From Candidatus Altimarinota bacterium (GTDB lineage: Bacteria > Patescibacteriota > Gracilibacteria > UBA1369 > LOWO2-01-FULL-3), in NCBI GenBank assembly GCA_029939035.1, contig JAOZTS010000024.1:1-14192 (forward strand): DNA of 14,192 nt, in the 5' to 3' direction. The notes beneath the pieces are model-generated. The model was not told where the DNA came from and made no database searches. It saw only the letters and a list, made by a program, of their open reading frames with translations. This document shows, piece by piece, positions 2 to 14,192 of the stretch. Positions within the stretch are counted from its first letter, which is position 1. Every line of letters starts with the position of its first letter. Both the position numbers and the translations under genes were made by a program.

Positions 2-1144
2 CTAAGGAGTACGTGGTATTCCCAGATCAAAAATCCAGCCAGTCTCAATTGTAGGATCTCCCTTCATGATCTCATTCACAGGAGGGTAAGTATCAATGCG
101 GCCAAGAACACCAGCAGCCACAGTCGTCTGCACTGTAATCGGATCAAACTCACCCGGATAATCTTCTTCCGCATCCTCCGACAGCCCAACCGTCAAAATA
201 ATAGTAACCGTAGGATGAGCACGAAAATCCGGCTCTGCAAAAGCTTTGTACGGATCCTCTAGTGGTTGAATAATAAATCTCAACTCCAGTATATTCGCCC
301 TCAGTGGTGAAATCGGCACAAACTGTGTGCCATTAACATCAAAAAGCCCAATCAAGTCAGATTCTTGAGGTAGACGAATTTGTGGATCGAGTTCAGAGGG
401 TTGTTTACCAATCAAATCTAAATAAGGAATTGCAATAGCGCCGTTAATAGTTCCAGGTTCGTCCTCACAATTAAATTCATCCAAACAGGTAAACGAATCC
501 ACAAATCCATTTTGATCAAAATCAATTCCTCTCATTCGCACTAATCCAATTGCATAATCGAAAGAATTTATCTGTTTTTTCGCAATAATCGTCTTTTGTG
601 TCCCGGTATTATCAATCAGGAACAAATGATCAGTCACTCCATCAGTACTACAGCCTCCAGCATTCCCTATATCCTCAAAAGCACTTGCACTCTTGGGATC
701 ACCATAAAATGGATTTTGACCAACATTTATATCGGTCGACAAAGTATAAACAACTTCACATTCATTGGTAATAGGGTCTTTGTACGAACATTCCAGTCCT
801 AGATCCTCAGGATTAAATGTTGCCAACCCGTCCAAACTTTTCCCAGGATCATAAAATCGACTTCCATAAACCCCATGATTAATACCAAAAAACACGCTCT
901 CCGCAGGCTCACCTTCCTGAATCACACAATAACTATAATATTCATCATAATCGATCGTCCCAGTCTGAATCTCCTTGGTCAAAAGCTGCAACATAATCCT
1001 AAGATCCTCATAAATTGCATTCTGCACAGAACTTTTCTTCTCAAGCTGAACAATATCGATCAAAATCGTACTCGACATCATCGCAACAATCGCAAAAAGG
1101 CTTATTGCAATCAAAACCTCAATTAACGATAGACCTTTTTTCAT
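2..1144 (-). CDS. GspJ/PilW-like minor prepilin
   Basis: A 380-residue protein with a class III (prepilin) signal: MKKG then LSLIEVLIAISLF. Cleavage after Gly4 would leave Glu at mature position 5, followed by a hydrophobic helix of about 20 residues. Such proteins are inserted in the membrane, cut by prepilin peptidase and built into type IV pili or type II secretion pseudopili. The large globular part and its third place in an H-I-J gene order suit the GspJ/PilW class, but the subfamily is inferred. It holds six cysteines (73, 119, 129, 165, 220, 226), possibly disulfide-forming, and an Asp208-x-Asp210-x-Asn212-Gly-x-x-Asp216 loop that looks like a calcium-binding loop. The ATG lies 2 bases after the TAA of the upstream gene with no Shine-Dalgarno, so translational coupling is likely. 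The stop is TAG. Any further downstream genes are outside the window. Confidence 0.85.
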   Translation of the reverse strand: MKKGLSLIEVLIAISLFAIVAMMSSTILIDIVQLEKKSSVQNAIYEDLRIMLQLLTKEIQTGTIDYDEYYSYCVIQEGEPAESVFFGINHGVYGSRFYDPGKSLDGLATFNPEDLGLECSYKDPITNECEVVYTLSTDINVGQNPFYGDPKSASAFEDIGNAGGCSTDGVTDHLFLIDNTGTQKTIIAKKQINSFDYAIGLVRMRGIDFDQNGFVDSFTCLDEFNCEDEPGTINGAIAIPYLDLIGKQPSELDPQIRLPQESDLIGLFDVNGTQFVPISPLRANILELRFIIQPLEDPYKAFAEPDFRAHPTVTIILTVGLSEDAEEDYPGEFDPITVQTTVAAGVLGRIDTYPPVNEIMKGDPTIETGWIFDLGIPRTP

Positions 1145-1146
1145 TA

Positions 1147-1752
1147 TTATAAGAAATTATAAAGCAATAATTCTCTCTTCAAAGACCGCACCTTTTGTCC
1201 CTCTTTCCACTCAACAACCACCTCAAAAACTGCATACTCATCCACACCATCAGCAGGCGCATTATCAGCTATCGAAATTACATTAATTGCTCTGTAAAAA
1301 ATTGTAGGCTCGGATGAAGACGTAGTTCCATACAAATATCTGCCATTGTCTTCGTGCAGCAGATATTCAATATCAGGGTCGGTATCTGACAAGTCCAGCT
1401 CTTCACCAGACCAATTGGTCATATACCACTTTCCACCCTCTTCTTCTGGGCGATAGTTTCCACCCTCACTCATCTTAAGCGGGCAAATATCAACACCACT
1501 ATTAGGCTCCATCTCCAGCCAACAATCAGGATCACCAGGCTGCAGCAGCCAATTCGTATCACGCACACTCTTTATCGCTTCCATCCCTTCTGTAGCCAAA
1601 TTCTGAGCAATCAGATAATTCCTCGACAAAACAGTAGTCCGAACAGAAGTCTGAATTATTGAAGCCAAAACCAAAGACCCAATAGAGAGCATAGCTATAG
1701 CCAGCAACGCTTCTGTCAGTATAAGACCCGATTTGTTTTGTCTAATTTTCAT
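1147..1752 (-). CDS. GspI/PilV-like minor prepilin
   Basis: A 201-residue prepilin-like protein. The N-terminus has a short basic leader (MKIRQNKSG) and then LILTEALLAIAMLSIG, giving Glu at mature position 5 after cleavage behind Gly9. Residues about 50-69 contain AQNLATEGMEAIKSVRDTNW, a pattern I associate with PilV-like prepilins of candidate-phyla bacteria (recalled, not searched). The rest is a small globular domain with two cysteines (77, 90). It is the middle gene of a three-gene operon. Its ATG overlaps the stop of the upstream gene (TAATG), and the next gene begins 2 bases after its own TAA. This arrangement implies co-translation and probably fixed stoichiometry. The expected role is a minor pilin or pseudopilin in a tip complex. 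The prepilin assignment is secure; the GspI/PilV class rests on size and order. Confidence 0.85.
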   Translation of the reverse strand: MKIRQNKSGLILTEALLAIAMLSIGSLVLASIIQTSVRTTVLSRNYLIAQNLATEGMEAIKSVRDTNWLLQPGDPDCWLEMEPNSGVDICPLKMSEGGNYRPEEEGGKWYMTNWSGEELDLSDTDPDIEYLLHEDNGRYLYGTTSSSEPTIFYRAINVISIADNAPADGVDEYAVFEVVVEWKEGQKVRSLKRELLLYNFL

Positions 1753-2297
1753 TATTTAGTTATTTCTTCAGCGATCCCAGAAACCTGGAATATATAAATG
1801 TATTTACTTAAGTCTAGCCCCTCATCATGAAACTCCAAATCAATTCTCTTCGTATTCACTTTATCCATCAAGAGAAGGCCAGTATTAGTAGTAGCATAAG
1901 ACGAAAGTTCACCTGTTGCGAATTCATAATAAAGGTAAATTGGGAGGTGATAGCTCGCCTCATCATGTGAAAATATAATTTCATATGGACTCAAATTCAA
2001 AGTTTCCAAAGGCACATCTGCACCACCATACACATATGGAGTATCTACCTCACCAAACAGAACCAATCCCTCATGTGAAATCTCAATCCCATACCTGTCA
2101 TAGATGTCACTATCCTTGTTATTAATTGCAAAAGATCGAGCTTTTCTTAGATCCGAAATGATCGGTTTGTACTTTGAGAAAAATGTAAAAGTGGCGCTCG
2201 TATCAAAAAAACTTGTAAGCGCAGCCACAGCAAGCATCCCAATGAGGGTAATGATCAGCAGAACTTCAATTAAAGTAAAAGCTTTTTTATTTCGCAT
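1752..2297 (-). CDS. GspH/FimT-like minor prepilin
   Basis: A 181-residue protein starting MRNKKA|FTLIEVLLIITLIGML, a textbook prepilin N-terminus with Phe at +1 and Glu at +5; the -1 residue is Ala rather than the usual Gly. Residues about 49-60 read DLRKARSFAINN, the pattern seen after the N-terminal helix in GspH/FimT pseudopilins. The C-terminal part is predicted to be a beta-rich domain. It is the first gene of the minus-strand operon, and its TAA overlaps the next ATG as TAATG. A perfect TATAAT on the minus strand ends 6 bases before the ATG, so the transcript could begin at or next to the start codon (a leaderless message); no Shine-Dalgarno is present. The divergent PilX/GspK-like gene starts 40 bp away. 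Confidence 0.87.
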   Translation of the reverse strand: MRNKKAFTLIEVLLIITLIGMLAVAALTSFFDTSATFTFFSKYKPIISDLRKARSFAINNKDSDIYDRYGIEISHEGLVLFGEVDTPYVYGGADVPLETLNLSPYEIIFSHDEASYHLPIYLYYEFATGELSSYATTNTGLLLMDKVNTKRIDLEFHDEGLDLSKYIYIFQVSGIAEEITK

Positions 2298-2311: not shown

Positions 2312-2337
2312 GGGTGCGACAAAATTATTCCAGTATC

Positions 2338-3672
2338 ATGGAAAAATCCAAAATAATTAAAGAAGACGGGTTCATAGCAATCATCGCTTTGAGCATCTTT
2401 TTACTTCTCAGTCTTTTTGGAATAATAGTACAGCGAGTCACAACCGACTCCCTCAACAACGTCGCTACCACAAACAAATACAACGAAGCCAGCGACATAG
2501 CCGACTCAGTAATCGAATATTTGCAGTACGAAATGTCACAGCGTGAGGCGGGATTTAGCATGGACGAGGTGGAATGCGTATATGTGGAAGACACAACTCA
2601 GCAAGGTTGGAATGAAGAAATTTGCGACAACATCGACGAACCTTTAGGAATTGGTGGCAAGGAAATTACGATAACTATGGAGGTGGAGGGGCGGAATGAT
2701 GCTCTAAATGAGAAAGATTATCTGACAGGGTACGGTCCAACAGGAGGGGATGTTTTTGTAATTCCTCACCTGGGGACAGGTGACGCAGGCAGTAAGTGTG
2801 ATGTTTATCAGTCTGAAATTGAAGAAGCAAATTGGGACTCAGCCGTAGACGCACACATTAGTCGTAAAGGCCAAATAGTAGAAACTACAGAAAATGAATT
2901 TATGGAGCAGATAGATTATCCATGTAATTGGAACAAATTGTCATTTGGCAGTAGTTCGACTGATAGAGTAGCAATTCCATTGTATTACGATGAAAGTGAA
3001 GCAGGAGACGTACAATCCATCATAGTAAATCCATTTTTAGATATATACGATACAAACACTGATGTTAAAGTGAATCAATTAATTGTAAGAATTAGACCAC
3101 CTTGCGAACCATGTCTGAGCACAGATTGTCCTGCAGACAAGACTTTTTGTGACGGGACTCAAACTCATAGATATGTTTTGGACGATGGAGGTGGCCAAAC
3201 CGAAGAAAATGACATTGTTGTCCAATGGCAAATATCAGGGGAATGTGATGGGGAGCCTTGCAGTTTGATCCCGTATGCTAAAAATGTTATGAATCATGAT
3301 TATATTGATGTGTCTGCTTCCTCAGTAATTACAGAACTTGAAATAAATAACACCTGGGGAATAAATTTTGAGGTTCTACATTTTGCATTAAACAGTGGTA
3401 TAAGCACAGATGATTATAAGGAATATTTAATAATTGATGAATTAAGCGGAGAAATTGAAAAACCAACTCTTATTTTATTTCTAAACGAAAAATTATTAAC
3501 TAGCCCGGGCTTAAACGTCCCTTACCTTGAATATCAAATCCTTACTGACAACCCAGTAGGGAGCCCAAATACTCAAGCAATTACAACTATAAATATAGAT
3601 GGGTATGTTTTTGAGAAAACGCTTACTCAGCAAGAAGAAACATCCCTTATTGACTTTGCAGTACAGAATTAG
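2338..3672 (+). CDS. PilX/GspK-like minor prepilin lacking Glu+5
   Basis: From ATG 2338 the protein has 444 residues. It begins MEKSKIIKEDG and then FIAIIALSIFLLLSLFGIIV, a prepilin-like leader with Gly at -1 and Phe at +1, but mature position 5 is Ile, not Glu. GspK, the capping pseudopilin, also lacks Glu5, so I read this as the K/X member of the set. The body holds at least ten cysteines, including a dense cluster (RPPCEPCLSTDC, then more to about residue 320), suggesting disulfides. A GTG at 2314 in the same frame would add eight residues, but a TATAAT at 2306-2311 would place the transcription start near 2318, so ATG 2338 is preferred. There is no Shine-Dalgarno. The gene is divergent from the H-I-J operon. 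Its TAG stop lies 1 base before the -35 box of the next promoter. Confidence 0.78.
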   Translation: MEKSKIIKEDGFIAIIALSIFLLLSLFGIIVQRVTTDSLNNVATTNKYNEASDIADSVIEYLQYEMSQREAGFSMDEVECVYVEDTTQQGWNEEICDNIDEPLGIGGKEITITMEVEGRNDALNEKDYLTGYGPTGGDVFVIPHLGTGDAGSKCDVYQSEIEEANWDSAVDAHISRKGQIVETTENEFMEQIDYPCNWNKLSFGSSSTDRVAIPLYYDESEAGDVQSIIVNPFLDIYDTNTDVKVNQLIVRIRPPCEPCLSTDCPADKTFCDGTQTHRYVLDDGGGQTEENDIVVQWQISGECDGEPCSLIPYAKNVMNHDYIDVSASSVITELEINNTWGINFEVLHFALNSGISTDDYKEYLIIDELSGEIEKPTLILFLNEKLLTSPGLNVPYLEYQILTDNPVGSPNTQAITTINIDGYVFEKTLTQQEETSLIDFAVQN

Positions 3673-3727: not shown

Positions 3728-5818
3728 ATGAGCGAATTAGCACAAAATAACGATATTCTAGAGAAGAAGCCAGAAGCTGCAATTGTCGCAGCAGAACAAG
3801 GTGAAGCATCCGAAACGATAAGCAAAAATGTAGAGATAGTTTCGATTAGTCAGGTTTTGAGACTAGAGGCACCTGATGGCAAAGAAGATGAGATTCTTTG
3901 TATTGGTGAAGTAGAGGATTTAGGAAATGGTGCGACAGCAACCAAAGCAAAAATTGTACCAATGGAAATAGCCGGATTAATAGAACCCAACGAACCAAGA
4001 GCAAAACAAGGCATGACTAAGAGGGCTTTAGCAGCAACAGTAGCTGCAGTCTTAGGTGGTGGAGTAGTAGTATCTGCAGCAAGTGGGTGTAATTTGGTGA
4101 ACGGTGAAGGAAATGCAGCAGGAGACCAAATGAAGAAGAATATGACATCAACTGATTACGCAAACAACTTCCAAGACCAAGGACTAGCATGTTTTAGCCA
4201 AGCTGGTGACAAACCTTTATCCATAGGAACTTTACCAAATGGAGATAAGATTATTTTATTTTCAAGAGGAGATGAATGTTTTGGTGTAACAGCACCAGAT
4301 TATCAAACAGCTGCAACTCAGGAATGTACACCGCAATTAATACAAATAGATGGAGATTGGTATGGTGGCACTCCTCCAATTCCATCATGTACAGCAGATG
4401 GAACAAGAATAGCTGCCGTAAGAGGAGGTGAAGGAGTATTAGGAGATTTGACAGTTACCGGAGGTGTAATAGAGTCTAGTAATGAATTTCACCATCCTAA
4501 CATTCAAGCAGCGAGTAGACTTAAGTTTGTAAGAGATGGAGGTCAACAATTCATTCTTACTAATAATGGGTCTGGTCTTGATAAAGTTAATTTAGATACT
4601 CAAATTGTAGATAACACTACCGTACCAGTTGATTGCGACCTACCTTCAAAAGACGACGCCGCAAACATCTGGCTAGGAGCAAGAGAGATTGGAGGAGATT
4701 GTACAGTCATTCAAGCACCAACTTTACAAGGATTAGCTTCAAGCATAATTCAAATTCAAGGAATTCAAGGTACTTATATGGGACCAAGCGCAGGAGACAG
4801 TATTTTATTCTTCAACGCAGCAGACGGAAACCACTACGCAGTCGTTCTCCCATACTGTGGAGACGGAACTTGTGACGCCGGGGAAGATTCAAGCAACTGT
4901 TCAGCAGACTGCGGAGCTCCACAAGAAGACGCTGGGGTAGATGCAGAGGTCGATGCAGAAGTCCAGAACGATGCAGAAGTACAAAACGACGCAGAAGTTC
5001 AAAACGATGCAGAAGTCCAAAACGATGCAGAGCCGCAAAACGACGCAGAAGTAGACGCAGAAACCCCACTACCATGTGACAAATACAAAGGAAATGCTGA
5101 CAGCAGATTACAATTAAGTAATGGAACGTGTGAAATCACTGATTGTGAGGAAACAGCACTTCAAGAACTATTAACAGTTCAAGGAGACTGTACCGCAGAA
5201 GTAGATGCAGGTGGGACATTACCAAAAATTCACGCTCTTTATTCTGCAAACGGATCAAATGGAGGAGCATTACGATTGGATCTAAAGGATTCAGAAAATC
5301 CACAATTACTATTCGGAGGAATGCACACAACAACAAACGGTAATGCGCACACAACTACCTATACAAAAAATGGACATACAGTTGCAACTGTAGCTGAGGG
5401 AACAGAATTTAGAGAAGAAGAAATGTCAAATAGTAGATACAAAATTGAAATATTGGATAAGACTGTAAATGTACACAAAAACGGAGATCTTATGGGGACA
5501 TTAACTGACACAGGAGAAATTATATTAGATTTGAGCGGAACCGTAACAAATCCAGATGCCGGAGTAGATGCAGGAACTGATTCTGGAGTGGATGCAGGGA
5601 CTGGAGAAAAACCTAAACCAGGCTGCGCAGAAGGTTGTAGCACATCAAATGGAGCACCAACCACTGAACTCGCACTTGTTGCTGCTGCTTTAATGGCATT
5701 AGCATGGGCAAGAAGACGAAATGAAGATCTCGCTGAGTCAGAGAGAGTACCAGGACAATTATTGAGTAGAATGGGAATACGAAAAGCATTAAAGGAAATA
5801 TTCAGAAAAGAGGCTTAA
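3728..5818 (+). CDS. Surface protein with MYXO-CTERM-like C-terminus
   Basis: A 696-residue protein I cannot assign to a named family. In order: residues 1-95, hydrophilic and cytosol-like; 96-121, a perfect-looking signal (Lys-Arg, hydrophobic stretch, A-S-G-Cys121 lipobox); about 125-375, a secreted domain rich in short repeats of Gly/Asp turns, perhaps propeller-like; 377-395, CGDGTCDAGEDSSNCSADC, a small disulfide motif; then an Asp/Ala linker with five QNDAE(V/P) units; a second Cys-containing domain from about 450; a DAGVDAGTDSGVDAG linker; and a C-terminus with GCAEGCSTSNG, a hydrophobic segment at 648-661, RRR at 662-664 and a 32-residue charged tail. The Cys-hydrophobic-Arg trio resembles the MYXO-CTERM sorting signal. 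ATG 3728 is chosen for the strong promoter 20-50 bp upstream; ATG 4013 (Met96) is a serious alternative. A predicted cell-surface role is inference. Confidence 0.75.
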   Translation: MSELAQNNDILEKKPEAAIVAAEQGEASETISKNVEIVSISQVLRLEAPDGKEDEILCIGEVEDLGNGATATKAKIVPMEIAGLIEPNEPRAKQGMTKRALAATVAAVLGGGVVVSAASGCNLVNGEGNAAGDQMKKNMTSTDYANNFQDQGLACFSQAGDKPLSIGTLPNGDKIILFSRGDECFGVTAPDYQTAATQECTPQLIQIDGDWYGGTPPIPSCTADGTRIAAVRGGEGVLGDLTVTGGVIESSNEFHHPNIQAASRLKFVRDGGQQFILTNNGSGLDKVNLDTQIVDNTTVPVDCDLPSKDDAANIWLGAREIGGDCTVIQAPTLQGLASSIIQIQGIQGTYMGPSAGDSILFFNAADGNHYAVVLPYCGDGTCDAGEDSSNCSADCGAPQEDAGVDAEVDAEVQNDAEVQNDAEVQNDAEVQNDAEPQNDAEVDAETPLPCDKYKGNADSRLQLSNGTCEITDCEETALQELLTVQGDCTAEVDAGGTLPKIHALYSANGSNGGALRLDLKDSENPQLLFGGMHTTTNGNAHTTTYTKNGHTVATVAEGTEFREEEMSNSRYKIEILDKTVNVHKNGDLMGTLTDTGEIILDLSGTVTNPDAGVDAGTDSGVDAGTGEKPKPGCAEGCSTSNGAPTTELALVAAALMALAWARRRNEDLAESERVPGQLLSRMGIRKALKEIFRKEA
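4955..5044 (+). repeat. Five 18-bp tandem repeats coding (E)VQNDA units
   Basis: Units begin at 4955, 4973, 4991, 5009 and 5027, each of the form GCAGAAGTNCAAAACGAY; the fifth reads GCAGAGCCGCAAAACGAC. They encode Ala-Glu-Val-Gln-Asn-Asp, with Pro for Val in the last. Differences between the first four are all synonymous (for example GTC/GTA/GTT, GAT/GAC, CAG/CAA), so the protein sequence appears to be what is kept. The array forms an acidic linker between two Cys-containing domains. Confidence 0.9.
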
Positions 5819-5867: not shown

Positions 5868-7958
5868 TTGGCAAAAACTCTACTGAAAAATAAAGCAATA
5901 TCCTCTGTTTTGGTCGGTGCTGTTATTACACTCCTCCTTACAGTATTTTCGTTTACAAATTTATTCAATTCTTGGCATCTGAAAATTGCAGATACTTTGT
6001 ACGCAAATAATCAATCTTCTGATGAGATTGTGATAATCGGAATAGATGAAAAAAGCACATATAGATCGCCAGAAGGACTAGGTCAATTCTCCAAATGGAG
6101 CCGAGAAAATTATGTAGATTTATTAGATGTACTTGGTGATGATCCAAAAGTAATCGTCTTTGACCTTTTATTCGATACAGAAACTCAAGAAATTCCGATT
6201 CAAATGATAACAGATCTGAAATATGGGAATACTGATCAAACTTACGAAGAATTTATAGATGCCAATTCAACAATTATCGATAATTCCATAGATAAAGCAT
6301 TAGCAGAAAAGTTTTACGAAACTGAAAATTTGGTATTAGCATTTCATTCAAACAATGGGAGCCCAATATTCCCATTAAATAAATTCAGCATAAATGCAAA
6401 ACTTGGAGATGTAATTGCTGAGGTTGATGATGATGGGGTGCTTAGAAAAACACCACCATTTTATCAAGATGAAACCGGATATTATTCGGATATGGGTATG
6501 GCTGCAGTGCAAGAATACTTAGATGCAGAAGATATAAATGTGACCCCAGATTCGCTAACAATTAAAAGCGCAACAAAAGAAATTCAAATTCCACTCGAAG
6601 AAGGCAAAATGAATATGAATTTCTTTGAGAATCCAGGTCACACTCACATTTCATTTATAGATGTAGTAAATGGAGATTTTGATAAAGAGCTAATACAAGA
6701 CAAAATCGTTTTAGTAGGAGTCACAGAACTAACAAGTACTCAAGACACTGTCACAACACCACTATCAGAATCAAAGATCATATTTGGCGTCGAATTCCGT
6801 GCAAATGAAATCCAAACAATCCTCGATGAAAAATTCCTCACAAACCAATCCACTCTAGGGAAAATCGCAACAATAGCCCTAATCTCAATCGCTCTAGCAT
6901 TGATAATCATGCACCTCGGTGCGATCCTTTCTACAGTGATTGCGATTGTCGCTATCGTCGGGTATTACATGCTCGCTCACGTATTATTCCGCACAGGTTT
7001 GATCGTGAACATGGTGTATCCGTTTATGGCGATTATCCTCACCTTCCTAGCTTCTTGGGTGTATAAGTACACGATCGCGGACAAAAAGAAGCGTGAAATG
7101 AAATCAGCATTTGGGCACTACGTAAGTGACAAATTGGTTGAGGAAATCAGCAAGAATCCAGATCTAGTGAAATTAGGAGGAGAAAAACGGCAGGTCTCAG
7201 TATTCTTCTCGGATATAAAAGATTCTACGAAAATGTCTGAACAAATAGACACAGCTCTGTGGGTAGCACAGATGAACGAATATTTCACAATGATGGAAAA
7301 GGTGATAAAGCAAGTCGGTGGAACGATCGACAAATACGAAGGGGATGCAATTATGGGATTCTTTAACGCACCAATCCCACAAGAAAATCACCAGGCACTC
7401 GCACATCTCTGTGCGTTGGAAATGAAAAAAGCATTGGCAATATTGCACAAGAAATGGGAACCAGAAGGTAAACCATTATTAGAATTTAGGATCGGTATAA
7501 ACACAGGTGAAGCAATCGTCGGTAACTTCGGATCAGCAGACAGATTCGATTACACAGTAATGGGGGACACGGTGAACGTCGCTTCCAGATTGGAAAGCTC
7601 AGCAAACAAAACATATGGGACCAAAATAATGGCATCAGGGTTCGAGAACTCAGACCAAATAGTAGTCCGAGAAATCGATATAGTCCTCCTCCCGGGGAAA
7701 GCAGAACCAGTAACTCTGCACGAACTAGTCTGCACAGCAACAGAGCTCACAGAAGAGCTCAAAACAGCAATCCAAACATACGCAGCAGGCCTAGAAGCCT
7801 ACAGAAAAAAAGACTTCACAACAGCAATCGCAAACTTCGAAAAACTAGCAAAAGATCCACCAGCTCAAATAATGCTGGCAAGATGTCAGGCCCTAGCAAA
7901 AGGCGAACAAGTCGCAGGCCTAGAAGACAATATGGTCTTCAGAATATTCAACAAATAA
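5868..7958 (+). CDS. CHASE2-domain class III adenylate cyclase
   Basis: A 696-residue membrane enzyme predicted to make cAMP from ATP. The order is: a basic N-terminus and first membrane segment (about 11-30); an extracytoplasmic CHASE2 sensor (about 35-310, with DEIVIIGIDEKS and PKVIVFDLLFDTET near its start); three membrane segments (about 333-352, 353-373, 379-400); the FGHYVSDKLVEEI linker (about 415-427); a cyclase homology domain; and a TPR-like tail from about 634. Catalytic residues are complete: metal ligands Asp449 and Asp493, adenine-selecting Lys489 and Asp561, and transition-state residues Asn570 and Arg574. The Lys/Asp pair argues for adenylate rather than guanylate cyclase. The start is TTG, since the next in-frame ATG would remove the first membrane segment; there is no Shine-Dalgarno. 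What the CHASE2 domain senses is unknown. Confidence 0.93.
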   Translation: MAKTLLKNKAISSVLVGAVITLLLTVFSFTNLFNSWHLKIADTLYANNQSSDEIVIIGIDEKSTYRSPEGLGQFSKWSRENYVDLLDVLGDDPKVIVFDLLFDTETQEIPIQMITDLKYGNTDQTYEEFIDANSTIIDNSIDKALAEKFYETENLVLAFHSNNGSPIFPLNKFSINAKLGDVIAEVDDDGVLRKTPPFYQDETGYYSDMGMAAVQEYLDAEDINVTPDSLTIKSATKEIQIPLEEGKMNMNFFENPGHTHISFIDVVNGDFDKELIQDKIVLVGVTELTSTQDTVTTPLSESKIIFGVEFRANEIQTILDEKFLTNQSTLGKIATIALISIALALIIMHLGAILSTVIAIVAIVGYYMLAHVLFRTGLIVNMVYPFMAIILTFLASWVYKYTIADKKKREMKSAFGHYVSDKLVEEISKNPDLVKLGGEKRQVSVFFSDIKDSTKMSEQIDTALWVAQMNEYFTMMEKVIKQVGGTIDKYEGDAIMGFFNAPIPQENHQALAHLCALEMKKALAILHKKWEPEGKPLLEFRIGINTGEAIVGNFGSADRFDYTVMGDTVNVASRLESSANKTYGTKIMASGFENSDQIVVREIDIVLLPGKAEPVTLHELVCTATELTEELKTAIQTYAAGLEAYRKKDFTTAIANFEKLAKDPPAQIMLARCQALAKGEQVAGLEDNMVFRIFNK

Positions 7959-8053: not shown

Positions 8054-10588
8054 CTAAGGATTTGGTGTACGAACCAGAAGGGAAAGGCTTGGGAAGGTAG
8101 AGGAGAAGATGGAAGTCGAACCAGAAGCACCAAAAGGTGGATCGATCACAATTGATCCAGAGAAGGGAGCCCAATAAGAAAAATCGGGTAGACCAGTGTC
8201 CAGCAAGTAAGCCTGAACATACTGGGAACCACCATGAATCAAAATAGACGCAGGCATATCCACACAGTCAAAATTGATAGACATGGAACCGGTGCCAAAG
8301 GAACCACTAAGATAAGGAGTCGGACCGGAAGTCGCAATCTCATACGTTCCTCCCGGTGAATCCATGTAAACAGTGTAACCCACGTTCGGGTCGCAATTAT
8401 TCCATGGGTTCTGATATGCACCTTCGCATTGGCCAATAGAAGCATTGCACGATTCACCGCTAGGGCAACTATTGCAAACACCTCCACAGCCATCAAAGCC
8501 ACATACCACACCAGTACACGAGGGCACACAACTGGAAACGCATTGTCCCAAAGGAACATCACAAATATCTCCAGTAGCGCAGAATCCGCAGAATCCTCCA
8601 CAGTAGTCCGGTCCACATTCACGACCCGTACAATCAACTGTACAAGTGCATTGGCCGATAGCATTATCGCACACCTGGCCAGTTGCACAGGAACCACAAT
8701 CCCCACCATATGGATTCGATCCACAGACTCTGCCATTGCAGTAGCAATCAGCAAAAGGAGCCTCTGGCACAGAGATTGTAATCTGATCAACGTCCACAAA
8801 GACGATGTCAGGCCCAGTAACAGCATGTGTTAGATCCAAAGAAACGTCGATTCCTCCATCAGAAGGCCTTTCCAAACACGTAATGTCAAAATGCCCGGTA
8901 ATCGATTCGGTTTCGCCAGGAGAAACGGTGTTGTAACCAACACCATCCCTATAGTCATCGTCTGTCACCTGACAGATCGATGCAGCTCCAGGATCATCCA
9001 TCACCAAGCGGAGGTCAATCACATTCACAACCTCATCTCCGTTGTTTGTGACGTCACATTCAATCTGCAACACCGTGTCTGGATTAACGCACTGCGTATC
9101 CTCAGGATCAACGTAGCAGTTTAGAGAAACGTCCAATACGAATTCATCTTCACTGCCTCCAGTTCCAGCACTATTGTCATCCGGGTCAACACAGGCAAAA
9201 ACTGCCTGGTCACACTGACAACCGCTTTCGCAGTTAACATTTCGACAATAGCAGGGAGAAAGAGAAGCAACCATGATGAAATAATCACCACGACCGATTT
9301 CCATCCCCGGGGAGAAACTCAAAGCAGCAGAATCAAGCCCTCCATAATAATTAATAGTCTCCACATACCGATATGCCCAATGAGTTTTCGGGATATTTGG
9401 GAAATGGGCATGCGAAGGGTTTTGAATACTAATTACTCCAGTTTTCGAAGCGGCCTCAACTACGAACTTCGCAGCTTCAGCAAACTCCACTCTTTCATTA
9501 GGAAGAAAGTAATCCGCAACAGAATTCACAATTCCATATCGAACTGCACAGGCGACCACTCCAAAATACCAGTCGTCCTGATCCACATCCACAAAGGGTT
9601 CACTCGCTCCACAGCCATCCATCAGCCCATACAAAAACATAGGGACTTTCAGAGCTTCAGCACGAGTCAACTTGTCATCAGGATGCAAACCTCCATCCGC
9701 TTTGCCATCCAAAGCACACTCGGCATACAAATACGCCCCAGCCTCCGCCACGAGCGAAGACAGCGCACTCTGATCAGTAAACTGATGCCCCCATTCACGA
9801 CCACAATTTGGAATCAAAGGACACCCTGGCAAAGCACCACATTCAGCAGAAAACCAGCCGCCCTCAGGCAACTCACCACCACCAAAAGTGTCGCCACTTT
9901 GGTCACACGAAAAAACCATATTGTTAGTCAGAATCAAAGCAGTGTAATTCCCATGAGAATCGTAGCGATAATCACCACGAACACATTTAGGCACACCATT
10001 GCCATCTGTGAAGCGATGGGGGATGCCTTCTCCAGAATCACACTCTTCAAACTGAAAATGAAGATGATAACCAGCAGAATCGCCAGTATTCCCAATCTCT
10101 CCAATCTTCAGCCCCTGGCAAATCTGCTGACCTTCTGAAATGTGATCAACAGAGCCATTAAGCATGTGAGCAGACCGCGAACATATATTATTTCCATGGT
10201 CAATTACTATGTAATTTCCCCATCCGTAGTCGAGCCCAGCATCTACAACGACACCATCAGCCGTGGCAAGAACTGGTTTCCCATTGTCTTCACTGCCAGG
10301 GAGGTTAAAATCCCATCCATACTTGCAACAATTCCAAGTATGGGACATTTCGGCATCACAATAATCCCAATCAGAATAATACTGATTGCACTCAGCGCAA
10401 TGCTCCTTCCAGGACTGAGTAATTTCCCAGTCATAGCCTGGTGGAATAGGAACCTTGAAGCTTCGGCTCCCTCCTCCCATGTCAGGGTAGGAATAGTTAG
10501 AATTACTTACGGCGTTTGGTTCGAGCGTACACGAAGCTGAGAAAAAAAAAGCTACGAAAATCACTACAAAAATGGGCTTTGAAAACAT
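8054..10588 (-). CDS. Lipoprotein with M23, SLH and Cys-repeat domains
   Basis: An 844-residue mosaic surface protein. In order: a signal peptide ending FFFSASC (Cys20, imperfect lipobox); an M23/LytM-like domain, about 47-220, with Asp93, His141 and the HLH motif at 175-177; three S-layer homology domains at about 267-320, 331-385 and 395-443; a Cys-rich turn; a CARDB-like beta domain, about 483-608; three Cys-rich repeats at 615-721; and a C-terminal beta-rich domain. M23 enzymes cut peptidoglycan cross-bridges, and SLH domains bind cell-wall polymers. The first zinc ligand (His of HxxxD) is Lys89 here, so activity is doubtful. ATG 10588 is chosen over an ATG 18 codons upstream because AGGAGG lies 6 bases before it and the signal peptide then begins at residue 1. 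Sampled G+C is about 47-52%, above most neighbours. The stop is TAG. Confidence 0.9.
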   Translation of the reverse strand: MFSKPIFVVIFVAFFFSASCTLEPNAVSNSNYSYPDMGGGSRSFKVPIPPGYDWEITQSWKEHCAECNQYYSDWDYCDAEMSHTWNCCKYGWDFNLPGSEDNGKPVLATADGVVVDAGLDYGWGNYIVIDHGNNICSRSAHMLNGSVDHISEGQQICQGLKIGEIGNTGDSAGYHLHFQFEECDSGEGIPHRFTDGNGVPKCVRGDYRYDSHGNYTALILTNNMVFSCDQSGDTFGGGELPEGGWFSAECGALPGCPLIPNCGREWGHQFTDQSALSSLVAEAGAYLYAECALDGKADGGLHPDDKLTRAEALKVPMFLYGLMDGCGASEPFVDVDQDDWYFGVVACAVRYGIVNSVADYFLPNERVEFAEAAKFVVEAASKTGVISIQNPSHAHFPNIPKTHWAYRYVETINYYGGLDSAALSFSPGMEIGRGDYFIMVASLSPCYCRNVNCESGCQCDQAVFACVDPDDNSAGTGGSEDEFVLDVSLNCYVDPEDTQCVNPDTVLQIECDVTNNGDEVVNVIDLRLVMDDPGAASICQVTDDDYRDGVGYNTVSPGETESITGHFDITCLERPSDGGIDVSLDLTHAVTGPDIVFVDVDQITISVPEAPFADCYCNGRVCGSNPYGGDCGSCATGQVCDNAIGQCTCTVDCTGRECGPDYCGGFCGFCATGDICDVPLGQCVSSCVPSCTGVVCGFDGCGGVCNSCPSGESCNASIGQCEGAYQNPWNNCDPNVGYTVYMDSPGGTYEIATSGPTPYLSGSFGTGSMSINFDCVDMPASILIHGGSQYVQAYLLDTGLPDFSYWAPFSGSIVIDPPFGASGSTSIFSSTFPSLSLLVRTPNP
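8426..8746 (-). repeat. Three Cys-rich repeats in the SLH/M23 lipoprotein
   Basis: Residues 615-647, 649-683 and 687-721 share the pattern CxCxGxxCGxxxCGGxCGxCxxGxxCxxxxGQC, with small changes in each copy (the first has NPYGGDCG in place of the CGGxCG core). The spacing suggests separate small disulfide-knotted modules. I have seen similar repeats in secreted proteins of Myxococcota and relatives (recalled). The DNA copies have diverged, so this is an old protein repeat, not a recent tandem duplication. Confidence 0.85.
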
Positions 10589-10594
10589 GTCGGA

Positions 10595-10600
10595 CCTCCT
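10595..10600 (-). promoter_or_regulatory. Canonical Shine-Dalgarno AGGAGG
   Basis: AGGAGG on the minus strand lies 6 bases before ATG 10588 and fixes that codon as the start of the SLH/M23 lipoprotein. No other gene start in this window has a comparable ribosome binding site. Confidence 0.88.
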
Positions 10601-10631
10601 TGTTTGGGTTTGTTTCAAGCCAAAATTACCT

Positions 10632-10653
10632 CGAGATGTCAAAGAGCATCTCG
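10632..10653. repeat. Inverted repeat CGAGATG-8-CATCTCG
   Basis: A perfect 7-bp inverted repeat with an 8-base centre lies 44-65 bases upstream of the minus-strand ATG 10588 and overlaps a minus-strand TTGACA. It could be an operator for a dimeric regulator or a hairpin in the leader RNA. There is no T run after it, so it is not a terminator. Confidence 0.45.
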
Positions 10654-12797: not shown

Positions 12798-14192
12798 TCA
12801 TTTTACGACAAATCCCGCAATCCTTCCCGGTACGTAGATCTCTTTTACCACTTCGCCTTCTTCCAAGTATTTAGCAACATTTTCTAAAGCTTTCGCCGCA
12901 GCAATTGCTTCTTCTTGGGTCGCATCCTTGGAGATTTCTATTTCACCACGAATCTTTCCGTTTATCTGAACGCCGATGTTGACAGTACTATCAACAACCG
13001 CTTCTTTGTCATATTGAGGCCATTCACTATCAACCACGCTAAAGTTTTCACCCAATAGTTCCCAACATTCCTCAGCCAAATGAGGAGCAATCGGAGCAAT
13101 CAGTTGAACTATTATCTTTTTCGAATCTTTATCAATTCCGCTCTTCATCACAAAATTCACAAACTCCATCAAAGCAGCAACCACAGTATTGAACTGCATC
13201 TTCTCTATATCTTCAGAAACTTTCTTTATAAGTTTATTTAGATTTTTCTTTAATAATTCCGCGTCCTCAACCTTTTCTTCGCTATTCACAACATTCCAGA
13301 ACCGATCCACAAACCGCGCAATTCCAGTAATCCCCTTATCATTCCAATCTCCACCATCCACAAACGGCCCCATAAACATCAAGTACATGCGGAAAACATC
13401 ACTTCCGTATTTCTCAACAAATTCATCCGGCGAAACTACATTTCCTTTGGATTTCGACATTTTTGCCCCATCCTTCGTCACCATTCCCTGATGAACTAAT
13501 CTCTTGAAAGGTTCCTTGAACCCAACAAGACCCATATCATGAAGAGCCATATTCACAAACCTCGCATACAACAGATGCATACAAGCATGCTCAGGCCCAC
13601 CAATATACATATCAACCGGCAACCATTTATCCACAATCTTCTTATCAAACGGCTTGTCAGTCATCTTACTGCAAGGATATCTCAAATAATACCAACTACT
13701 ACAAAGGAAAGTGTCCAGAGTATCCACTTCGCGCTCAGCTTCACCACCGCACTCCGGACACTTCGTCTTCCGGAAACTATCACTGTGATAAAGGGGGGAT
13801 TTTCCATCACCCTTTAGCTTGAAATCAATATCCATCGGCAATTCCACAGGCAATTGATCCTCCGGAACCGGAACTTCTCCACATTTTTCACAATAAACAA
13901 TCGGAATAGGAGAACCCCAATATCTCTGACGAGAAATAGACCAATCTCTAAGTTTGTAATTTGTAACACGCTTCCCGTAACCCTTCTCCTCCATATGATC
14001 CATGATTTTTACCGTCGCTTCGTGGATATCAATTCCATCCAAAAAGTCACTATTTATCATCGTACCTTCGTGTTCTTGAACCTGTTCCGGCTTCGTAATC
14101 TCGGACTCATCACCATCTTTTCCAACAACAACACGGATAACCTCAAGGTCTTTCTCTATAGCAAATTCAAAGTCCCTAATATCATGTCCGGG
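12798..14192 (-). CDS. leuS: Leucyl-tRNA synthetase, C-terminal part (5' end outside window)
   Basis: The last 464 residues of LeuRS, which charges tRNA-Leu with leucine in the cytosol. The frame is open to the window edge, so the 5' end and the HIGH motif lie beyond it. The visible part begins inside the CP1 editing domain at PGHDIRDFEFA, which carries the editing-site Asp. There follow the LRDWSISRQRYWGSPIPIVYC core, a zinc ribbon (CEKC and CPEC), the GGPEHACMHLLYARF helix, KMSKSKGNVVSPDEF and an anticodon-binding region with a C-terminal domain. The link between QGMV and KMSKS is short, so the leucine-specific insertion of E. coli LeuRS is absent, as in Bacillus-type enzymes. The stop is TGA, which argues for the standard bacterial code. 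Nothing suggests damage. Confidence 0.97.
   Translation of the reverse strand, partial: PGHDIRDFEFAIEKDLEVIRVVVGKDGDESEITKPEQVQEHEGTMINSDFLDGIDIHEATVKIMDHMEEKGYGKRVTNYKLRDWSISRQRYWGSPIPIVYCEKCGEVPVPEDQLPVELPMDIDFKLKGDGKSPLYHSDSFRKTKCPECGGEAEREVDTLDTFLCSSWYYLRYPCSKMTDKPFDKKIVDKWLPVDMYIGGPEHACMHLLYARFVNMALHDMGLVGFKEPFKRLVHQGMVTKDGAKMSKSKGNVVSPDEFVEKYGSDVFRMYLMFMGPFVDGGDWNDKGITGIARFVDRFWNVVNSEEKVEDAELLKKNLNKLIKKVSEDIEKMQFNTVVAALMEFVNFVMKSGIDKDSKKIIVQLIAPIAPHLAEECWELLGENFSVVDSEWPQYDKEAVVDSTVNIGVQINGKIRGEIEISKDATQEEAIAAAKALENVAKYLEEGEVVKEIYVPGRIAGFVVK

Follow-up and report, generated by a model that had tools for sequence, protein, structure and literature searches.

The window, the 14,192-nucleotide stretch of DNA that was analysed, carries a minor-pilin cassette: three prepilin-like genes lie on the minus strand, and the plus strand has, in this order, a PilX-like gene, a gene for a putative surface protein with a Cys-helix-Arg C-terminus and a CHASE2-cyclase gene (Table 1). 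This order recurs in relatives. The DNA had been attributed to a probable CPR genome in the original prediction, and among named genomes, the nearest to carry this locus is indeed that of Candidatus Peribacteria ZH-bin-154. The PilX-like label rests on gene position, the N-terminus and a weak Pfam match; in Pfam, the window's PilX-like protein yields no match, and its counterpart in a relative (G074) yields a weak match to PilX_N, below the cut-off.

Table 1 Features of the cassette and of the tagged protein in the window
Feature	Position	Strand	Basis
Prepilin-type protein, PilW/GspJ place; runs to the window end	2..1144	-	N_methyl PF07963, 25.1 bits
Prepilin-like protein, PilV place	1147..1752	-	N-terminus by eye; no Pfam match
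Prepilin-type protein, FimU/GspH place	1752..2297	-	N_methyl PF07963, 26.7 bits
PilX/GspK-like minor pilin; N-terminus EDG followed by FIAIIALSIFLLLSLF, without Glu5	2314..3672	+	Position; N-terminus by eye; 11-gene profile (itself included)
Putative surface protein, 696 aa; predicted export segment, probable beta-propeller, Cys-helix-Arg end	3728..5818	+	ORF translation; three homologues
N-terminal hydrophobic segment with lipobox-like end AASGC (Cys 121), preceded by ~95 hydrophilic residues	4025..4090	+	Hydropathy; motif
Probable beta-propeller, residues 155-380	4190..4867	+	Low-confidence model with propeller matches
Asp/Gly-rich linker (PDAGVDAGTDSG...), precedes the signal	5564..5620	+	Sequence; kept across four homologues
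Cys-helix-Arg signal GCAEGC...RRR, residues 632-664	5621..5719	+	TIGR03901 match; order-wide profile A1, E=2.4e-14
Basic tail, 32 residues (665-696), R.PG..L motif	5720..5815	+	Tail alignment with P0001-P0003
CHASE2 + adenylate/guanylate cyclase	5868..7958	+	PF05226, 142.6 bits; PF00211, 74.7 bits

The surface protein (hereafter, the window protein) ends in ...KPKPGCAEGCSTSNGAPTTELALVAAALMALAWARRR followed by NEDLAESERVPGQLLSRMGIRKALKEIFRKEA. Its C-terminus consists of Cys 633 and Cys 637, a predicted helix of about 16 residues (~646-661), the RRR cluster at 662-664 and the tail. The original prediction had read this end as a layout resembling the MYXO-CTERM sorting signal, in which the Arg cluster is followed by 32 further residues instead of being terminal, and both parts of this reading hold up: GCAEGC, the helix and RRR are in place, the NCBIfam MYXO-CTERM profile TIGR03901 matches residues 636-664, and the translation contains the tail in full. 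A search of 5.8 billion proteins, in which scoring covered the 7,990 candidates with most words in common, returned three matches, P0001-P0003, in which 55-57% of the query aligned at 33-62% identity; the start codon of the 696-aa ORF is common to P0001. The homologues match the window protein along its full length except for the variable middle, and their Cys motif and helix are likewise followed by a tail of ~35 residues. Because these tails lie in the same frame and four of their residues (R673, P675, G676 and L679) are invariant in all four sequences, the stop codon and the tail are real. The tail is nevertheless the least conserved segment, with 19-31% identity for all pairs except P0002/P0003 (91%), compared to 42-48% identity between the signal of the window protein and those of the homologues; its length, net charge and R.PG..L motif are kept. 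Judging from this alignment, the tail is genuine and retained, yet weakly conserved, so that the question of tail conservation raised by the original prediction is answered in the affirmative for length and only weakly so for sequence. In a separate observation, the N-terminal and propeller parts of P0002 and P0003 are 23-39% identical and their C-terminal halves 86-95%, which looks like an exchange of the adhesive front part.

Against the whole window protein, TIGR03901 scores 16.9 bits (E=0.0062), below its cut-off of 20, and in a six-frame search of the genome it scores 23.2 bits at the same place, above the cut-off. TIGR03901 exceeds the cut-off in 21 of 195 relatives, all within the window's order of 89 genomes; in two of these (G030, G037), the matched stretch contains no Cys, and the other 19 are Cys-bearing. 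Relatives thus share the layout, so that the refuting outcome named in the original prediction, in which no protein of the genome or its relatives would do so, did not occur. The tags of the relatives are often short-ended, as is typical of MYXO-CTERM, and above the cut-off; the match in G074, at the very C-terminus, reaches 36.9 bits in the genome search and 30.9 bits as a protein. Among the 106 genomes outside the order, 10 had matches, all below the cut-off, with a Cys in none of the four loci viewed. Profile A1, which we built from 33 C-termini, matches 57 of the 89 order genomes at a threshold of E<=0.05 and, at the stricter one of E<=1.1e-4, 42; after removal of G080, which has no Cys, 41 of the 89 were counted as tagged. 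By eye, the layout is present in seven further genomes (G052, G058, G076, G067, G045, G012 and G021).

The GC ahead of the helix is invariant in all 33 aligned ends, which had been picked with a model favouring GC; at this place, a lone Cys is common. When an end was defined as GC, a 14-residue uncharged hydrophobic stretch and then two basic residues, 45 of 644 distinct ORFs of at least 150 aa in the fetched loci qualified, compared to 2 of 12,880 shuffled ends; given that the loci were in part fetched because of the tag, the former fraction is no genome-wide rate. A chance hydrophobic end, for which the 16.9 bits of the window protein alone might speak, can practically be dismissed, because of the profile matches in 41 genomes, the excess over shuffled ends and the repeated finding of the tag at the same place in the gene order. 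If the first charged residue is taken as its start, the end comprises 5-18 residues in 38 of the 45 tagged ORFs and 24-35 in the remaining 7, with the window protein having the longest end of all (35 residues, RRR plus 32). A genome usually encodes one to three tagged proteins. In the window's own genome (89% complete), where the original prediction suggested looking for other proteins with the same C-terminus, both TIGR03901 and A1 find the window protein only.

The named carriers of the tag belong to Ca. Peribacteria, Peregrinibacteria (including P0009, Candidatus Peregrinibacteria) and Gracilibacteria, and one of them, P0004, which is 74% identical to the G074 protein, is already entered at NCBI as 'MYXO-CTERM sorting domain-containing protein [Candidatus Gracilibacteria bacterium]'. 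The literature on MYXO-CTERM that was searched does not mention it together with Patescibacteria, and the phrase 'sorting signal' was not found in that on Peregrinibacteria; an earlier in silico study of myxosortase may contain such a mention. In Pfam, ten tagged proteins gave a weak propeller repeat (PD40, in G082), MopE metal-binding and DUF4215 repeats, with four lacking any match, and the window protein has no family over the cut-off.

The new element at this locus, overlooked in the original prediction, is the place of the tagged gene, between the PilX-like gene and the CHASE2-cyclase gene. In all 28 genomes where it could be read, the ORF after the PilX-like gene ends in the Cys-helix-basic layout, 26 times on the same strand (24 were recognised by the profile and four by a looser pattern). 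This count is partly circular because eleven genes adjoining tagged proteins served to build the PilX profile, and 24 of the 28 loci had entered the set through the window, the tag or similarity to the window protein; the four fetched for the cyclase alone (G052, G058, G067 and G076) all have the tagged PilX neighbour. A hydrophobic N-terminal segment is present in 26 of the 28 PilX-adjacent proteins, and a lipobox-like match in 14, at least two of which look misplaced by eye. Tagged genes also occur away from pilins, in G038 and G049 and, as far as the second and third copies are concerned, in G036 and G074.

Cyclase loci were fetched from 45 genomes, and in 28 of these, a tagged gene lies at most four ORFs upstream of the cyclase; in the other 17, there is none within four ORFs, and a contig border or other neighbours are found instead. 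By profile, the cyclase is present in 29 of the 41 tagged and 20 of the 48 untagged genomes (p=0.01), a weak tracking that gives p=0.075 among genomes at least 90% complete; genomes added by hand are left out of this count, since with them the figure is stronger but biased, some having come via the cyclase. A scan of the genome contigs with the cyclase alignment mostly brought up unrelated cyclases and one locus from Ca. Peribacteria.

Given the resemblance of the tag to that of Myxococcota, the cassette could harbor a true MYXO-CTERM system, in which the Cys is lipidated, a CPBP glutamic protease, such as the one encoded on contig C57 of the own genome, cuts behind it, and the helix and tail are released, so that the surface protein remains attached by the lipid. 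The scores of several relatives at the very C-terminus, well above the cut-off, and the presence of that one CPBP protein are compatible with such a system, and cleavage of TraA by MrtX in M. xanthus is reported to depend on the Cys pair of TraA, with E. coli supporting cleavage (PMC11980579). However, the myxosortase profile Mrt_core (NF040914), which matches 51 of the 89 order genomes at E<=0.01, exceeds its cut-off in none of the 89. The broader CPBP family (PF02517) is found in 59 of the 89 genomes, 29 of the 41 tagged and 30 of the 48 untagged ones (p=0.50), and at completeness of at least 90%, in 23 of 33 and 20 of 30, respectively (p=1). Ten tagged genomes at least 90% complete have no CPBP match (G007, a single contig, and G030, G053, G060, G062, G069, G072, G074, G082 and G084), and the search does detect CPBP in other members (G045, G078 and G085) of family f2, to which several of these ten belong. 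This co-occurrence pattern rules out CPBP as a general partner of the tag. The CPBP protein of the own genome scores 24.2 bits against a Mrt_core cut-off of 100, so that its role as the processing protease is only possible. Furthermore, Myxococcota have dozens of MYXO-CTERM proteins per genome, compared to the one to three found here. Overall, we regard a true MYXO-CTERM system as quite unlikely. As a separate observation, CPBP matches in three class relatives (G151, G181 and G172) contain in-frame TGA codons, as expected if TGA is recoded.

Rhomboid and exosortase, the other protease families searched, are likewise lacking or unconnected to the tag. Rhomboids gave four weak matches, none over the cut-off in the 89 order genomes, which removes them as processors and, together with the CPBP counts, leaves the processing by a CPBP or rhomboid protease envisaged in the original prediction unsupported. 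Exosortase exceeds the cut-off in 12 of the 89 genomes, the one point in favor of a different type of signal, for a sortase, exosortase or rhombosortase, but its presence is unrelated to that of the tag (6 of 41 tagged vs 6 of 48 untagged genomes, p=1), which eliminates it as a partner, and none is found in the own genome; in view of this and of the rhomboid result, a signal of that kind is very improbable. In the window, no protease gene adjoins the tagged gene.

Compared to known systems, the tag shares with MYXO-CTERM/MrtX of Myxococcota the Cys signature, the C-terminal helix, the Arg cluster and the occurrence in (here presumably) exported proteins with Asp/Gly-rich linkers, and relatives of the window protein exceed the curated cut-off. 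It differs in being found in CPR genomes, at a fixed place beside a PilX-like gene and with no myxosortase over the cut-off, and, in the window protein, in lying 32 residues short of the terminus, where the MYXO-CTERM signal is located. Because the signal is not terminal, no myxosortase exceeds the cut-off and the tagged proteins are few, the tag of the window is to be called MYXO-CTERM-like, as distinct from demonstrated MYXO-CTERM. The JDVT-CTERM/MrtJ and Synerg-CTERM/MrtS systems named in NCBIfam resemble the present one in having few substrates and CPBP protease relatives, and JDVT-CTERM also in a conserved Cys (PMC11980579), but MrtJ is encoded beside its substrate. Rhombosortase/GlyGly-CTERM differs by its rhomboid protease.

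Given that no protease family examined (CPBP, Mrt_core, rhomboid or exosortase) tracks the tag, the C-terminus might be an ordinary anchor, with the helix retained, the Cys pair in a disulfide or unmodified, no sorting enzyme and a convergent likeness to MYXO-CTERM. The long ends in seven of the 45 ORFs and the tail kept in four homologues suggest that the inner part matters, in favor of such an anchor. The invariance of GC, albeit among ends selected with a GC-favouring model, and the single Cys in many ends, which disfavours a disulfide within the motif, point the other way, and we consider an ordinary anchor unlikely, although less so than a true MYXO-CTERM system.

Enzymes that could lipidate the Cys are widespread. 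Lgt exceeds the cut-off in 87 of the 89 order genomes, and LspA is found in 81, usually in a single copy, with no hint of a second, tag-specific one. At least two Lgt matches, fragments counted, are present in 75 of the 89 genomes. A divergent Lgt paralogue was observed in the own genome (L247:1364-2179, contig C128) and at eight further loci. The Pfam match of this paralogue is clear, and by eye, the His and Arg of what we take to be the canonical Lgt motifs seem changed. In all nine loci, it adjoins a gene of ~445-467 aa, next to an apparent CTP synthase, and in most of them, a small membrane protein is encoded on the other side. That this paralogue serves as the acyltransferase of the tag is no more than an idea, given the unrelated neighborhood in 9 of 9 loci and the apparent loss of the motif His and Arg.

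The body of the window protein may resemble PilY1. A structural model of poor quality (mean pLDDT 38.3) yields propeller matches and suggests that the body forms a beta-propeller like that of PilY1, although structural matches to propellers are common among unrelated proteins. The P0004 model (mean 30.7) was unusable, and a sequence search of solved structures with the window protein found no match up to E=1. The Pfam family for the C-terminal domain of PilY1 did not appear among the window protein's matches, listed up to E=1. The resemblance to PilY1 encoded with FimU-PilV-PilW-PilX in M. xanthus and P. aeruginosa extends to the minor-pilin gene order, the PilX neighbor, the putative export signal and the probable propeller; the differences, apart from the missing Pfam match, are the C-terminal helix anchor and the often lipobox-like N-terminus. 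PilY1 is described as soluble, is touched by PilX in M. xanthus and has been compared there to a type II secretion substrate (PMC7541494), and the MYXO-CTERM proteins of that bacterium are reported to be type II secretion substrates (PMC11980579). A tagged protein encoded beside a PilX-like gene would fit both sets of facts, by analogy. Another parallel is PilX2 of Saccharibacteria (Nanosynbacter lyticus TM7x), likewise a CPR protein from a minor-pilin locus, with a beta-propeller and a proposed role as a PilY1-like, host-binding adhesin (PMC12206443), but in PilX2 pilin and propeller form one protein, whereas here a separate protein carries the Cys-helix-Arg end.

The window protein is probably, with some reservation, the PilY1-like surface component of a minor-pilin cassette in Ca. 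Peribacteria and relatives, and a MYXO-CTERM-like anchor would hold it. CPR cells generally have only one membrane. As we infer it, the N-terminal export segment, lipobox-like in this case, would take the protein through Sec, and the beta-propeller-like body would remain outside. The Arg cluster would stop the C-terminal helix in the membrane, placing the conserved Cys at the outer face, where an Lgt-type enzyme probably lipidates it. As the tail is kept here, the helix of the window protein may stay on, uncleaved. Held in the membrane near the pilus base, the protein would be available for uptake by the PilX-like tip pilin, and contact may be reported by the CHASE2-cyclase of the neighboring gene. 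CyaB of P. aeruginosa carries a CHASE2 domain. By way of analogy, PilY1 of that bacterium is reported to influence cAMP via CyaB expression (PMC13001225).

A more far-reaching version of this model, tentative and in our estimate rather improbable, is that a CPR order parks a PilY1-like propeller adhesin in its membrane beside PilX by means of a tag without myxosortase, that another enzyme, perhaps with one of the two Lgt-like proteins found in most of these genomes, finishes the attachment, and that the tail, in those proteins that keep one, couples the adhesin to the CHASE2-cyclase, yielding a one-cassette sensor of host contact. CPR bacteria hold their hosts by pilus tips, and a tag beside a PilX-like gene would link the MYXO-CTERM-like layout to such tips. 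MYXO-CTERM is described as a tag of Myxococcota that is connected with type II secretion (PMC11980579); its occurrence as a layout in CPR, beside a PilX-like tip pilin and with the known protease lacking, would separate the tag from the enzyme. What attaches such tags without a myxosortase and whether the neighboring cyclase reads pilus contact thereby become testable questions.

Several further features of the locus were observed. In several genomes of the window's family, a second protein of ~260-310 aa encoded near the cyclase also ends in the Cys-helix-basic layout (L097:11009-11932, L107:10748-11668, L286:3870-4730, L271:6273-7145, L285:8150-8929 and a 292-aa protein in L270); most of these have long tails, and the part seen includes no obvious N-terminal signal. 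On the minus strand of the window, positions 8054-10642 encode a protein of 862 aa that combines M23 peptidase and SLH domains with Cys-rich repeats; its N-terminus is hydrophobic and contains Cys. The window also has a gene for leucyl-tRNA synthetase close to the cassette (12798-14192, minus strand), as do, by sequence, L271, L286, L302 and L114.
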